Virus record (IMG/VR): IMGVR_UViG_3300009788_000180
Span: 1-41,221 of that record
Reading direction: 5' to 3' (one strand)
DNA length: 41,221 nt
Source: a virus
Each line of letters starts with the position of its first letter. The first letter of the stretch is position 1. The notes under the pieces are model-generated. The model did not search any database. It saw nothing but the letters and a program-made list of their open reading frames with translations, and was not told the origin of the DNA. Both the position numbers and the translations under genes were made by a program. This document shows positions 5,552 through 36,665 of the stretch, in pieces.

Positions 5552-6918
5552 TGGCTTTCCCAACAGTACAGTTTACAAACACCTCAGCAGAAATAGGTAA
5601 TGTTACGACGCATACTGTTAGCCTCCCCGCAACCGTTGCAGCGAATGACTTTCTTGTAATAGTCGCCTCTATCAACGGCACACCAACTATTACCCCTCCG
5701 TCTGGTTGGACTCTCATAAAAGAGATTACAGGAACAAATCATAAGTATGCGTCATTCAAAAAGTTAGCTGCTGGAACGGAGGGCGGAACAACGGTAACAT
5801 TTACTACTTCGGCTTCAGAGCAAAGTGCTCACATATCTTTGGCTGGAGATGCGTGGTCAGAGAATATAAGCGACATTGAGGTATCTACCGGAGCTATAGG
5901 GTCCACTGCGAATCCTGACTCTGACAGTGTAACAGCGTCTTGGGGTAGCGACGACAACCTATTTATAGCAACAACCGCAACCAGAAGGGGCGACAGGACA
6001 ACAAACAGCTATCCAGCAAACTACGCAGACAACCAGATTACAAGCGTTGGTGCGGTAACGAGCAGCGGGTCTGGGGCAATACTGGCAACAAGAGAGTTAG
6101 CCGCATCAAACGATGATCCCGGCACATTTGGTCTCAGTGGATCGACCCCTTGGTCAGCGGCAACAATAGTTATTAAGCCTAGTGCAGGCGGGGCAACAGC
6201 ATTAGTCGTCAACGACATGACACAAGGGCAACAACTAGGGCAGGTAACACTCACTCAGCAGCATGTGTTGGCAGCGAACGATTTAAATCAAGCCCAAGAA
6301 CTGTCGCAACCTACGATCACTCAACACCAGATTTTGACCGTGAGCGATCTGAATCAGTTGCAGCAACTATCAGAACCAACACTAACAGCGCATTCAGTTT
6401 TATCGGTCAACGATCTTGATCAATTACAGCAGATCGAACAGTCGACGCTAATCCAGCATAATATTTTAGTCGTTGATAATATCGACCAGGCGCAGCAGCT
6501 CAGCCAAGCCGGGTTAACACAACACAATGTTCTGGTGGTCAATGGCATGGTTCAGGCTCAAGAGCTTGGTGAGGTCACTTTGGGAGTAGCTGGAGTCCTC
6601 GATGTCAATGATATGAGCCAGGCGCAACAACTCACTCAGACAATAATTGACCAAATATTCGCGCTTTTGGTCAATGATATCGATCAAACACAGGAACTGA
6701 CATCACCGGTATTATCTCAACACCAGAGCCTTGTAGTTGACGACATGACGCAATCACAGCTATTATCATTGGTAAATCTTGGTGGTGCAGCTGTAGGGTG
6801 CATTAACGGCGTTGTCACTTTGGCATCAAAAATCAACGGCGTCGTTACTATGACACCTCTTACTGATGGTACAGTTTCGCTGATACCGGAAATCAATGGA
6901 ATAATCACAACTCATTAG
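5551..6918 (+). CDS. Fibre/spike-like structural protein with nine 22-residue repeats
   Basis: 455 residues in three parts. Residues 1-217 are serine/threonine-rich beta sequence like a jelly-roll or lectin-type adhesion domain. Residues 218-415 are nine consecutive repeats of exactly 22 residues, each near the pattern LxVNDLxQAQQLSQPTLTQHxV. Residues 416-455 contain shorter INGVVT-type repeats. Similar Q-rich repeats occur in phage minor structural and fibre proteins as I recall them. The regular length suggests a beta-solenoid or fibre shaft. Its place upstream of terminase, rather than with the tail fibres, suggests a head fibre or decoration protein. No signal peptide. Confidence 0.65.
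   Translation: MAFPTVQFTNTSAEIGNVTTHTVSLPATVAANDFLVIVASINGTPTITPPSGWTLIKEITGTNHKYASFKKLAAGTEGGTTVTFTTSASEQSAHISLAGDAWSENISDIEVSTGAIGSTANPDSDSVTASWGSDDNLFIATTATRRGDRTTNSYPANYADNQITSVGAVTSSGSGAILATRELAASNDDPGTFGLSGSTPWSAATIVIKPSAGGATALVVNDMTQGQQLGQVTLTQQHVLAANDLNQAQELSQPTITQHQILTVSDLNQLQQLSEPTLTAHSVLSVNDLDQLQQIEQSTLIQHNILVVDNIDQAQQLSQAGLTQHNVLVVNGMVQAQELGEVTLGVAGVLDVNDMSQAQQLTQTIIDQIFALLVNDIDQTQELTSPVLSQHQSLVVDDMTQSQLLSLVNLGGAAVGCINGVVTLASKINGVVTMTPLTDGTVSLIPEINGIITTH
6202..6795 (+). repeat. Nine tandem 66-bp coding repeats
   Basis: The repeats encode residues 218-415 of the fibre-like protein, with no insertion or deletion between units. DNA identity between units is modest while the protein pattern (ND, Q.QQL, TLTQH) is kept, which indicates old duplications under selection rather than recent slippage. 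Confidence 0.75.
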
Positions 6919-7301: not shown

Positions 7302-7523
7302 ATGACTGACGAAACCCGACAAATTGAGTGGACTGAAGTGCCTCATTATATGCTTGGTAGAAATCCACGCTTCCCGGGCGACCGCGATACACTGCCAAAG
7401 GCCGAGGCTGACACCTACGTCGAAATCGGCGTCGCAATGGACCCGGCCACAGGCGAGAAAAACGAGCGAAAGCCTGGACAACATTCGATTGTTGTTGATG
7501 ATATAACCCAGCAAAACAGGTAG
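7302..7523 (+). CDS. Hypothetical protein
   Basis: 73 residues with AGGTGA upstream. Hydrophilic, with many D, E, P and R residues and no membrane segment. A second reading frame in the same stretch (7324-7506) is taken as a shadow. No family recognised; operon position suggests a small structural or assembly protein. Confidence 0.5.
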   Translation: MTDETRQIEWTEVPHYMLGRNPRFPGDRDTLPKAEADTYVEIGVAMDPATGEKNERKPGQHSIVVDDITQQNR

Positions 7524-7929: not shown

Positions 7930-8493
7930 ATGAGCCAGAGAACACCTACCAAGGCAGAAATCAATAGGTATGCTGAAAATTACGTTCTATATGGGGATAA
8001 AACAAGGGCCGCGAGGGTTTCGTTCCCCAAGACAAAAGCATCGAAAGCGACAGTAAACGTGCTCGGATCAACCCTATATGCCATGCCAAAGGTACGCAGA
8101 AGGATTGAAGATCTCCAAATAACAAAGCATGAAATAGCCGACAAAGAATTCAACATCAATGCCAAATACGTTCTTGGCAGGCTTCACGAAATAGACACGC
8201 TCGACATTCTCGATATCATCAATGATGACTTTTCAGCGTTCAAAAAATTATCCGACTGGCCAAGATCCTGGCGAATCTCTATCAGCTCGATCGACCTTAA
8301 GCGCATTATCTCAAGAGAAGGAAAAGAGAATATTGAGTCTCTTGTCCAAAAAATACGCTGGCCAGACAAAACAAAGAATCTCGAGCTGCTGGGTAAGCAC
8401 GTTTCGATCGGCGCTTTCAAGGACGACAATCAGGAACCTGCACCGGATTTAGCAAAAGCCTTGTATGTACTAGCGCAGAAACTACCTGGATGA
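7930..8493 (+). CDS. Terminase small subunit
   Basis: 187 residues from the ATG at 7930 (GGTGAG upstream); an in-frame ATG at 7873 would add 19 residues but lacks a binding site. The N-terminal 70 residues look like a helix-turn-helix DNA-binding domain (TPTKAEINRYAENYVL...TRAARVSFP...), and the C-terminus is a helical oligomerisation and large-subunit-binding region. It overlaps the large-subunit gene by 4 bases. It would recognise the packaging site and recruit the large subunit. Confidence 0.75.
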   Translation: MSQRTPTKAEINRYAENYVLYGDKTRAARVSFPKTKASKATVNVLGSTLYAMPKVRRRIEDLQITKHEIADKEFNINAKYVLGRLHEIDTLDILDIINDDFSAFKKLSDWPRSWRISISSIDLKRIISREGKENIESLVQKIRWPDKTKNLELLGKHVSIGAFKDDNQEPAPDLAKALYVLAQKLPG

Positions 8494-29863: not shown

Positions 29864-30025
29864 ATGCCCAGCGTAACGACTTCAGTAGCAAACCCCGATG
29901 GATCGATTACAGTCACGACGGTGACGACCCTGCCAAATGGAAAAACATTAACCAGTGAAATAACCACAACTCCAGATCAAGGCGGAATTTCTACCAATGC
30001 AGCTGGCATCGGCGGCGGCGATTAA
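29864..30025 (+). CDS. Small threonine-rich protein
   Basis: 53 residues, AAGGA 6 nt before the ATG, TAA at 30023-30025. The sequence is dominated by T, S and V (SITVTTVTTLPNGKTLTSE) and ends GGGD. It resembles short Thr-rich phage proteins next to lysis genes, but no function is known. The good binding site and promoter support a real gene. Confidence 0.55.
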   Translation: MPSVTTSVANPDGSITVTTVTTLPNGKTLTSEITTTPDQGGISTNAAGIGGGD

Positions 30026-30028
30026 TCC

Positions 30029-30631
30029 ATGCTTCATCTAGCGCTTATATTTCTCGCGTTCGTTGCTCTCAGTCTAAACACTGAACCGGGTAACCGGGCT
30101 ATCTGTAAGCGCTGGATTATTGTTTTTATTTCCGCAAGCCTAACGATCATCCTATTATCGAAATCACTGGCATTCGTCAATCACGATATAACCAGGGGCT
30201 TTATTATAGGCCTCGAGTATTATATCCCTGCATTAATGAACCTGGCTGTTGCCAGATTTATCATGAAACAAAAATTAACATATGACTATGATGCATTGAT
30301 TTGGCTGTTGGCCGCTGAGGGAATTGTTTATTCTAGCGTCATGCTTGAAAGGTCTATTTTATCAAGTGAAAATATTTGGATTATCCATCAGCCGATACTC
30401 GTAATACTTACCGTAATTGAACTTATCATACTTCTGGTGAACTCAAATGAAGTCAGGGATTACATGGTTAGGAACTACGGCGATAAAGGCATGTATTCTG
30501 GTATTTCTTCTAGCCGCTGGATCGATGTGCCTAGAATTAGATTTGGCAAAATGGTTACAAGCTACTATATCAACCGGCATTATCGCAAGCTCACTAAAGA
30601 TGCTGTGGTCGAGCAGGGAAAGGTTGCTTAA
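30029..30631 (+). CDS. Multi-pass membrane protein
   Basis: 200 residues with about five hydrophobic segments in the first 140 residues (LALIFLAFVALSL, WIIVFISASLTIILL, and later ILVILTVIELIILLV) and a soluble basic tail of about 55 residues. The ATG lies 3 bases after the preceding stop. No family recognised. Phage-encoded membrane proteins after the lysis genes often modify host membrane properties or block superinfection; that is inference only. Confidence 0.55.
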   Translation: MLHLALIFLAFVALSLNTEPGNRAICKRWIIVFISASLTIILLSKSLAFVNHDITRGFIIGLEYYIPALMNLAVARFIMKQKLTYDYDALIWLLAAEGIVYSSVMLERSILSSENIWIIHQPILVILTVIELIILLVNSNEVRDYMVRNYGDKGMYSGISSSRWIDVPRIRFGKMVTSYYINRHYRKLTKDAVVEQGKVA

Positions 30632-34441: not shown

Positions 34442-34642
34442 CTAAACTACCTGCATGTCCGCATCAAATCTCTGGAAACTGCAAATGCATACCGTGTCAT
34501 GTCCATGTTGTTTGGCTAGCTGAAGCTCTAATGAGCGAATCTTTTCTATTGAGGACAAGGATGATGGAGCCGCGATACCTACATTCGCATCTCCATGTCC
34601 TTCGCCTTTTGTATAAACATAATGAATAAAATAATTAACCAT
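34442..34642 (-). CDS. Small hypothetical protein
   Basis: 66 residues from the ATG at 34642, chosen for the AAGGAG site 7 bases upstream; the longer reading to 34669 starts within the hairpin-rich region. It begins MVNYFIHYVYTKGEGHGDANVG and ends DTVCICSFQRFDADMQVV, a compact alpha/beta pattern. First gene after the non-coding region; function unknown. Confidence 0.5.
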   Translation of the reverse strand: MVNYFIHYVYTKGEGHGDANVGIAAPSSLSSIEKIRSLELQLAKQHGHDTVCICSFQRFDADMQVV

Positions 34643-34654
34643 ATCCTTCTCCTT

Positions 34655-35349
34655 AATTGACAGTGACAATTCCCCCTCTATTCACACCATGGTATATCCA
34701 ACTGCTGGCCAATGGCTTTACCGAATAGCTGATTCACACCACCTCTATGAGGACTCTTAACAGCCTGTTACCGGCCAATCATTAAGAGCAGGTCTGTAAT
34801 TTCTACAGCCAATACGTGACCAAGTTGACAGGGGTCGGTCAGAGCTTGGATTTGTTCGGTTGCGTTTTGACTAGTATCAACCTGATTACTGAATGTAACT
34901 AGGTAGACGGGAATCTGCATTGAAGAGAACAGGACTGAGGTATATCGCCAATCTTGGCTCGAATCTGCAAAGGTGTACCATCGCCCCTTGCAGTATTCCG
35001 GAATTAAACCGGAACCCTCGTTAAATGAGTTTGTTTAATAGGCGGTTCACTCCGCGCTTGTCACCTGTTTTAAAGGTCGGGAACACTGGATATAGCCCCG
35101 CTCTCATCAATGCAGACTCTATAACTTGCTTAGAAGATGGGGCTGTATACGGATTTGAACCGTCTACCTCGCGCGATGGCTGTCCCTCGGTTTCTCCCAC
35201 TCAAAGCCGCTAAGCAATGAGCTGATATTTCCTAGACTACAACGCCATCATCTAAACAAGCTATAAGGAGGCTTTAGAAAGGATTTGTGCGGGATCGACC
35301 TAAATCAGTTTTAAGAGTTGGACGTAACCACCCATTACTCTCCGCGCAC
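34655..35349 (-). ncRNA. Stem-rich gene-free region, candidate large structured RNA
   Basis: No protein gene is visible. Stems on either strand's reading include AATTG/CAATT (34655-34671), CTCTTAA/TTAAGAG (34754-34788), CTGTA/TACAG (34794-34808), GGTTG/CAACC (34858-34882), GCCA/TGGC (34947-34958), TGCAAAGG/CCTTGCA (34966-34992), TTCCGG/CCGGAA with a 7-nt loop (34996-35014), GCGG/CCGC (35042-35055), ACCT/AGGT (35063-35077), ACGG/CCGT around a T-arm-like loop (35149-35163), a 16-nt long-range stem (35125-35140 with 35245-35260) and TTTGTGCG/CGCACAAA (35284-35291 with 35345-35352). One mismatch of the 16-nt stem is a G-U wobble on the minus strand, favouring that strand. Phage-borne large ornate RNAs such as GOLLD or ROOL are the nearest known analogues. 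Confidence 0.4.
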
Positions 35350-35377
35350 AAAAAAGGGCTCTTATGAATCGAAGCCC
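35350..35377 (-). terminator. Rho-independent terminator of the candidate small RNA
   Basis: On the minus strand GGGCT (35377-35373) pairs with AGCCC (35360-35356), extended by one T-G pair, followed by T6 (35355-35350). The loop is 10 nt or more, longer than typical. Confidence 0.55.
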
Positions 35378-35489
35378 TGACAGTTGGGGCGGAATCGACA
35401 AGTAGGAATATTAAACCTTACCTGCCAAAACCTCGATACATAAAAACCCTTAACTGTCGATTCCTTTTCAGCGTTCCTACACGCCTACA
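35350..35489 (-). ncRNA. Candidate small RNA with promoter, pseudoknot and terminator
   Basis: A promoter (35496-35523) would start RNA near 35489 and a terminator ends it at 35350, giving about 140 nt with no reading frame. Two perfect helices cross each other: GTAGGAA/TTCCTAC (35474-35480 with 35402-35408) and GGAATCGACA/TGTCGATTCC (35455-35464 with 35391-35400). A third pairing, GACAGTT/AACTGTC (35452-35458 with 35379-35385), competes for part of the second. Alternative folds of this kind suggest a regulatory RNA. Confidence 0.5.
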
Positions 35490-35495
35490 TCCAGT

Positions 35496-35523
35496 ATTAT
35501 GTTCCTCCTTCGTTAAATGTCAA
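35496..35523 (-). promoter_or_regulatory. Strong minus-strand promoter
   Basis: TTGACA at 35523-35518 (consensus -35), a 16-bp spacer and CATAAT at 35501-35496 (5/6 of -10). It lies 31 bases downstream of the 35555 gene's stop and points into the gene-free region, so its purpose is to transcribe the non-coding RNA and perhaps the genes beyond. Confidence 0.65.
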
Positions 35524-35554
35524 GCCCAATTAGCTATAAGACGGTTCTATATCG

Positions 35555-35851
35555 TTAATGCTTAACAGGATTGCTAACTCTGAACGTATGGCCACCATAA
35601 CCACTGAATGTCAGCCAGCCATCCTCACCTCCGGTTATTCCTCCGTACTTCACATCGAAACCGCACGAAAAATCCTCGCCATCAATTGTGAAATATGCGG
35701 AGTCATCACCATTCGGACGAAGAGTTATGCCGGTTACAGTGGTTTTTCCGTCGATTCCCATCTCGGAATCCTCCAGAATACGCCCAATAAACTCATCAGA
35801 TTTTTCGACAAATTGACTCCAAAGCGGATATTCTTTCCCATTAATAACCAT
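35555..35851 (-). CDS. Hypothetical protein
   Basis: 98 residues from the ATG at 35851, 7 bases after GGAG; a TTG at 35863 is rejected. Beta-rich C-terminal two thirds (TTVTGITLRPNGDDSAYFTIDGED, then DGWLTFSGYGGHTFRV), acidic overall. No family recognised. Last gene before the non-coding region. Confidence 0.55.
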   Translation of the reverse strand: MVINGKEYPLWSQFVEKSDEFIGRILEDSEMGIDGKTTVTGITLRPNGDDSAYFTIDGEDFSCGFDVKYGGITGGEDGWLTFSGYGGHTFRVSNPVKH

Positions 35852-35852
35852 G

Positions 35853-36161
35853 TCACTCTCCAATTAATTCGTTTGTTTTATCCAGCAAATATTGCTCTGT
35901 CGCATATGTTTCTTCGAATAGTGCCTTTCCGGAAAACTTGCCCGGTGCGTGACGGTTAACCCATTCTCCTGTATTTGATGGTACCTGGTGGTGACGACTG
36001 CAAAGAGGAATGGTTAACTGGTGACAGCCTTTTTTTGTCTGGCCGTCCAGATGGTGTATTCCGCAAGGCGTGAACACATCCAAATACAGCAGGCATATTA
36101 TGCAACCCAAGTCATCGAGCTTTCTGCCCCGGGCTTTGTCGGCTTTGGTTAGTGCTCTCAC
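35853..36161 (-). CDS. Ref-like HNH-family nuclease
   Basis: 102 residues, ATGA overlap. A Cys/His-rich core fits the Ref (RecA-dependent nuclease) and related HNH family: CIIC at 20-23, PCGIHHLDGQTKKGCH at 32-47, IPLCSRHH at 51-58, and RHAPGK followed by LFEETYATEQYLL. P1 Ref is longer at its N-terminus, so this is the compact phage form. It probably cuts DNA in recombination or repair, consistent with the neighbouring RecT genes. Confidence 0.75.
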   Translation of the reverse strand: MRALTKADKARGRKLDDLGCIICLLYLDVFTPCGIHHLDGQTKKGCHQLTIPLCSRHHQVPSNTGEWVNRHAPGKFSGKALFEETYATEQYLLDKTNELIGE

Positions 36162-36658
36162 TGATCATCCCACCGGCTAACAATTTTATGTATGCCGTAG
36201 TCCTTGTTTTTTACACAATATTTATTGTAATTATTGCTCGGGTCATTGTTTGCTAGCCAATAACTAACAACCTCTTTATCGATATAGCAGCTATAAAATA
36301 CATTGCAATCATTAAGCCCCTTTATGGTCCCTACACCGTGCTGATAAACAAGATCTGAATAATCAGCAGGCATCCCGTCCCACCATTGGCCTTTGGCTTC
36401 AATGTCATCCTCATATTTCATTTTGATAGTAAATTCACGACCAGCAAAAGCCTTAAACTCTTGTGACGGAGGGCTATAATAATAAAAGTTGAAAAATCCG
36501 GAATCTTCAGCAACGAGGCTATTTCCTATCCGCTCATAAACAAATTCAGGTGCCCTATCTAGCACAAAAAATGTTTGCGTGAATCTCTGGTTTCTATGCT
36601 GGATAATATCAATGATCGATATTGGATTTAAATTCAGGTCTTTCTGTAAATTATTCAT
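36158..36658 (-). CDS. Hypothetical protein
   Basis: 166 residues from the ATG at 36658, which follows GAGG; a GTG at 36664 is less likely. Rich in Y, F, N and D (ESGFFNFYYYSPPSQEF-like segment, YNKYCVKNKDYGIHKI), low in GC relative to neighbours. No family recognised. Possibly a late acquisition in the operon. Confidence 0.5.
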   Translation of the reverse strand: MNNLQKDLNLNPISIIDIIQHRNQRFTQTFFVLDRAPEFVYERIGNSLVAEDSGFFNFYYYSPPSQEFKAFAGREFTIKMKYEDDIEAKGQWWDGMPADYSDLVYQHGVGTIKGLNDCNVFYSCYIDKEVVSYWLANNDPSNNYNKYCVKNKDYGIHKIVSRWDDQ

Positions 36659-36665
36659 AATCACC

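Follow-up and report, generated by a model that had tools for sequence, protein, structure and literature searches.

A putative large structured noncoding RNA of a class not in Rfam, encoded in the leftward recombination-gene block of a tailed phage

Results

Genes and features of the locus

The window, i.e. the whole 41.2-kb stretch of DNA analysed here, is part of the genome of a tailed phage recorded in IMG/VR. Its structural genes are directed rightward, and a leftward block contains the genes of a RecT-like annealing protein, an exonuclease and HNH proteins. Judged by the capsid, the nearest named relatives are phages of proteobacteria (Acinetobacter, 55%; Rhizobium, 53%). Inside the leftward block lies a gene-free interval (Table 1), delimited exactly by the stop codon of the minus-strand gene 35555-35863 and the ATG of gene 34442-34642, which has the ribosome site AAGGAGAAGGAT. 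The absence of a credible gene, claimed in the first-pass annotation, was borne out, as the longest stop-free frame runs to 88 codons here and, in the homologous region of another phage (L002, described below), to 82. These two frames occupy unrelated positions, and no frame is kept open in common between the two RNA regions; a check for conserved protein coding gave a negative answer. Smaller gene-free gaps are present elsewhere in the window.

In all three phages considered in this work, a small HNH-type nuclease gene followed by one small gene is located upstream of the RNA. The nuclease is encoded at 35853-36161 in the window, 6691-6984 in L002 and 5644-5937 in the third phage, L026, and it belongs to the Pfam family RecA_dep_nuc in the window and to YbcO in the other two.

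Table 1. Features of the interval, listed in the direction of the minus strand (P, predicted pairing probability; double changes are compensatory changes relative to the phage named)
Feature	Position in the window	Strand	Remarks
Gene-free interval with large structured RNA	34643-35554	minus	912 bases, inside leftward recombination-gene block
P0 closing helix, 5' arm (TAATTGG, TGACA)	35518-35532	minus	with 34654-34668; P 0.87-0.93
Sigma-70-like promoter TTGACA-16-CATAAT	35496-35523	minus	11/12 consensus match
Small hairpin GGCGT-GTAGGA-ACGCT	35470-35485	minus	P 0.95; within conserved GTAGGCGTGTnGGAACG
P2, 5' arm AAGGGTTTTTATGTATCGA	35433-35451	minus	18 pairs, P 0.96; 4 double changes (L002)
P2, 3' arm	35354-35372	minus	followed by conserved six-T run
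P3	35284-35352	minus	TTTGTGCGCGG 35342-35352 with CCCGCACAAA 35284-35293; P 0.92; 2 double changes
Near-invariant linker TCCTTTCTAAAG, then CCTCCT	35266-35283	minus	in 47-nt block 91% identical to L002
P4, 5' arm	35238-35265	minus	26 pairs, mean P 0.97; 2 double changes at inner end
tRNA T-arm-like hairpin ACGG-TTCAAAT-CCGT	35149-35163	minus	
P4, 3' arm	35120-35147	minus	within CATCTTCTAAGCAAGTTATAGAGTCT, identical in L002
P5, 5' arm	35094-35118	minus	24 pairs, P 0.96; 6 double changes, none broken (L002)
P5, 3' arm	34912-34936	minus	partner of 35094-35118
H-type pseudoknot	34858-34902	minus	around conserved AAAACGCA, 3' of P5
Pseudoknot stem 1		minus	CTAGT 34898-34902 with ACTAG 34871-34875
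Pseudoknot stem 2		minus	GGTTG 34878-34882 with CAACC 34858-34862
P9 hairpin CTCTTAA..GCC-GGTAACA-GGC..TTAAGAG	34753-34789	minus	4 double changes, 0 broken (L026)
P10 hairpin CCTC-ATA-GAGG	34742-34752	minus	1 double change (L026)
P0 closing helix, 3' arm	34654-34668	minus	just upstream of next gene's ribosome site; also kept in L026

Folding strength and strand

The predicted fold energy of the minus strand of the interval was -308.5 versus -263 ± 8.9 for shuffled sequences (z -5.1, 20 shuffles), and the plus strand gave a z of -1.6 (20 shuffles). When the window was scanned in non-overlapping 300-nt stretches, with additional 100-nt steps around the RNA region, the lowest z, -6.3, was that of the minus strand at 34851-35150, the other stretches having a mean of 0 and a standard deviation of 1.2. 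The second-lowest value in the window, -4.1, fell on the plus strand at 30001-30300, a stretch overlapping the start of gene 30029-30631. For the L002 RNA, z was -6.1 on the RNA strand versus -4.0 on the opposite one. The many small stems noticed in the first-pass annotation are present, but such stems would be expected in any 900 bases; the case for a structured RNA is therefore built on the energy of the whole fold and on covariation, and these two lines strongly support the proposed large structured RNA on the minus strand.

Homologues in other phages

The L002 contig (IMGVR_UViG_3300027872_000003) was reached through a protein 77% identical to that of window gene 36158-36664, located two genes upstream of the RNA. 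Downstream of the homologue of this gene, L002 has a same-strand gap of about 1.1 kb, which contains the whole RNA in the equivalent location. The two RNAs share five blocks, of 91% identity over 47 bases, 94% over 33, 74% over 68, 78% over 45 and 88% over 32, and the 5' part is better conserved than the 3' part. Neither gene 35555-35863 nor the nuclease upstream of it is related in sequence to its counterpart next to the L002 RNA, and the Pfam families of the two nucleases differ; thus it is the RNA that has been retained, its immediate neighbours being unrelated. The L026 contig (IMGVR_UViG_3300037560_000145) belongs to a sister phage, the two capsids being 87% identical; of the RNA it retains no more than the 3' quarter (72% identity over 253 bases), without the large arms.

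Exact and degenerate patterns of the conserved blocks revealed no IMG/VR contigs beyond these two (three DNA patterns led only to the L002 or the L026 contig, and one matched nothing), and protein queries of IMG/VR brought no additional copy of the RNA. Nine degenerate-pattern matches in genome contigs had no second conserved motif and were judged to be due to chance, while motif look-alikes in contigs L035 and L038 are located inside genes and were rejected. No blastn match was obtained for the window RNA in INPHARED, PLSDB and E. coli genomes, for the L002 RNA in phages and plasmids, or for the L026 piece in phages. The known members are two full-length RNAs (window, L002) and a partial one (L026).

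Architecture of the predicted RNA

The arms P2, P3 and P5 were recovered in both the window and the L002 RNA when each was folded alone. P4 appeared in both predictions if folding was restricted to the core or the far 3' end was omitted; with the longer L002 transcript its pairing probability was spread over alternatives. This arm includes the 16-nt long-range stem of the first-pass annotation, which proved to be real and larger than had been reported (Table 1). The junctions between P3 and P4 (CACAAATCCTTTCTAAAG) and between P4 and P5 (CATCTTCTAAGCAAGTTATAGAGTCT) are identical in the two phages. Of the near-invariant linker, TCCTT is predicted to pair with 35462-35466 and CCTCCT with 35504-35509. 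The small hairpin preceding P2 keeps its pairing in L002 as GGCGT/ACGTC, and in L026 the P9 pairings CTCTTAA/TTAAGAG and GCC/GGC are replaced by CTATCAC/GTGATAG and GAC/GTC, respectively. As to kissing loops, the loop complementarities in the window and L002 RNAs do not correspond. A conserved run of six T residues (35350-35355, minus strand) occurs directly after P2 in both phages; it is terminator-like and internal to the RNA.

Covariation

Compensatory base changes, by which the first-pass annotation had suggested that the structure be judged, were found. In the aligned helices (P2-P5, the pseudoknot and two 3' hairpins, with helix arms aligned by hand), 30 of the 36 changed pairs still pair, 26 through double compensatory changes and 4 through one-sided ones, and 6 are broken. 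Sliding the partners by 1-3 positions left 0-3 double changes, and when the changes of the 3' arms were placed randomly, the mean was 4.2 and the maximum 13 in 20,000 trials. Across the three phages, stem 1 of the pseudoknot has four double changes and no broken pair, and stem 2 has two of each; stem 1 covaries in all three (CTAGT/ACTAG, TCGGT/ACCGA and CCAGT/ACTGG, the third aligned by hand). This pattern of change argues, at the level of sequence, for a large conserved structured noncoding RNA.

A check independent of the hand alignment was provided by RNAalifold, run on plain MAFFT alignments with column-shuffled controls. The energies obtained were -77.6 kcal/mol versus -45.2 ± 5.8 in controls for the 5' part, and -42.1 versus -24.8 ± 4.1 for the 3' part. 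As to double changes, their number was above that of the controls in the 3' part alone; in the 5' part there were 20 versus a control mean of 21.6, because MAFFT misplaces P2 and this part is only 48% identical overall.

Ends of the RNA

The consensus promoter listed in Table 1 had been regarded as that reading the minus strand. Its match to the consensus and its conservation stand, the aligned L002 site being TTGACA-16-TAGAGT, and the promoter may be real. It should not, however, be taken as the start site of the RNA, since in both phages the same bases, a TAATY..TTGACA segment, are predicted as the 5' arm of a closing helix whose other arm is formed by the end of the gene-free region, and what resembles a -35 box may be the P0 arm. 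Promoter and P0 are incompatible in one transcript, since transcription initiated at this promoter would not include the P0 arm. An equivalent 5' arm is predicted to close the L002 RNA (7356-7377 with 8344-8364, arms located by folding and not by sequence alignment) and shows one double change, TAATT/AATTA in the window becoming TAATC/GATTA. Perhaps P0 closes the RNA between its two ends; if this model is right, the RNA body probably spans 34654-35532. At the 3' end of the RNA there is no clear ordinary terminator and the ribosome site of the next gene follows directly, so that a role in cis, or processing from a longer message, is conceivable.

Comparison with known RNA families

The suggestion that the RNA might be GOLLD or ROOL was not supported. 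The covariance models of GOLLD (RF02032, curated cut-off 150 bits) and ROOL (RF03087, curated cut-off 99.1 bits) were silent at E<=10 in the three phage records; the ROOL model was also silent in 14 control genomes, among which there was no known GOLLD or ROOL phage. Neither family was listed by cmscan of the window and L002 RNAs. The search of these two RNAs for other large RNAs was likewise without a match, as all 4,227 Rfam families gave nothing above chance at the gathering score or at E<=10, the models of OLE, raiA, HEARO, group I and II introns, tmRNA and phage pRNA included. ARAGORN detected neither a tRNA gene in the three phage records nor a cloverleaf; a degenerate tRNA cluster, suggested by T-arm-like hairpins, was ruled out by this result and by the fold. 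The evidence favours an undescribed class, an option that the first-pass annotation had allowed for.

Discussion

The sequence suggests that the minus strand of the interval specifies a noncoding RNA, about 0.85-0.9 kb long, belonging to a class not in Rfam. We would place it among the large 'ornate' phage RNAs as an uncatalogued class, set apart from GOLLD and ROOL by the covariance models. Its body would consist of the long branched arms P2, P3, P4 and P5 joined by near-invariant segments, followed by the pseudoknot and a separable 3' domain, and maybe closed end to end by P0. Such an RNA would be made during infection as a part of, or within, the leftward recombination-gene operon, and would act in trans as a stable structural particle, like phage GOLLD and ROOL, its role being neither that of a message nor that of a leader of one gene; it might oligomerise and might benefit the phage. 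We consider a trans-acting large structural RNA produced during infection somewhat probable. That it represents a distinct giant phage RNA class with its own architecture, unrelated to GOLLD and ROOL and acting in trans as a particle or a catalyst, has in our opinion slightly less than an even chance.

Chief among the competing explanations is a giant leader belonging to the next gene, i.e. a very long 5' region which, as a leader or attenuator, would control in cis transcription or translation of the small downstream gene. Possible modes of action include processive antitermination of the put type and a switch between P3 and the terminator-like P2 with its six-U run. The RNA is co-directional with the flanking genes and ends at a ribosome site with no 3' terminator, its conserved U run after P2 is partly paired by P3, and L026 keeps just the stretch adjoining its downstream gene. 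Put-type antiterminator RNAs and phage leaders resemble it in being co-directional with a phage operon and in having a terminator-like hairpin and a U run. However, put-like elements are shorter than 100 nt, the window RNA being ten times larger, and 0.9-1.0 kb with a dozen long helices far exceeds known leaders. The genes that such a leader would serve are not conserved either, as they differ across the three phages (in L026 a Lar restriction-alleviation gene, in the window and L002 genes without a Pfam family). We consider this explanation unlikely. If the interval were a decayed gene or a GC-rich stretch that contains stems by chance, the loss of most of the RNA in L026 would be accounted for, but blocks more than 90% identical in a phage with unrelated neighbouring genes, together with the 26 double compensations, leave such a non-functional origin hardly credible.

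Another possibility would involve a decoy or inhibitor RNA directed against host defence or translation by means of tRNA-like T-arm hairpins. Hairpins of this type with at least 4 pairs number one in the window RNA and two in the L002 RNA versus 0.05 on average in shuffles, and evasion of tRNA-targeting defences by phage tRNAs has been reported (PMC10264068). On the other hand, the T-loops of the window and L002 are at different positions, one of the L002 pair competes with P5, none occurs in L026, and no cloverleaf is seen by ARAGORN. In large RNAs, T-loops commonly serve for tertiary docking, and the hairpins found here may have this function; we regard a decoy as rather improbable. A highly divergent GOLLD or ROOL, missed by the Rfam models, would share with the window RNA an equal size, a similar kind of host genome, and several arms with pseudoknots. 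The lone 3' domain of L026 also recalls GOLLD, in which the 3' domain is conserved and the 5' domain looser (PMC12286853), whereas between the window and L002 it is the 5' part that is better conserved. With both models silent in three records, albeit in a search lacking a known-positive control, and with no tRNAs, we think this origin very improbable.

Like GOLLD, the window RNA is a multi-arm phage noncoding RNA of more than 800 nt with separable 5' and 3' domains, but, to the extent that this can be judged, the two RNAs differ in helix order. GOLLD is often, though not obligatorily, found near tRNAs, whereas the window RNA has none nearby. ROOL, an RNA of phages or prophages, is likewise large, noncoding and pseudoknotted; the difference is that the window phage has no tRNA island. 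GOLLD forms a 14-mer and ROOL an octamer, both of them homo-oligomeric RNA cages. The closest precedent for an RNA of this kind comes from Vibrio phage ICP1, which has no tRNAs: its most abundant transcript is an RNA of about 800 nt, encoded in an ORF-less gap of 1 kb (PMC7567579). This RNA, from the gap gp139/gp140 (naming of PMC7567579), resembles the window RNA in the ORF-less gap of about 1 kb and the lack of tRNAs; it differs in having an ordinary terminator at its end and in its location near lysis genes, not recombination genes, and no sequence relation between the two was found. The ICP1 region (L049 6098-7108, equal to NC_015157.1 80097-81107, minus strand) has no Rfam match at the gathering score (release 15), and its RNA appears to be an uncatalogued class too.

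Very few RNAs of comparable size and order are known, and how common cage formation is among large natural RNAs has been stated to be an open question (PMC12286853). The RNA described here, like that of ICP1 without a family at the gathering score, suggests that there are more such phage RNAs than Rfam lists. For cryo-EM, a new class represented by a pair of full-length homologues and one natural truncation, and possessing a defined pseudoknot domain, would provide a ready comparison. In the truncated form (L026 4938-5364, minus strand), the 3' pseudoknot domain is joined to a different 5' part with the stems GGGTGTA/TACACCC and AACCGGCC/GGCCGGTT; this short version could represent either an RNA reduced in size or a remnant.
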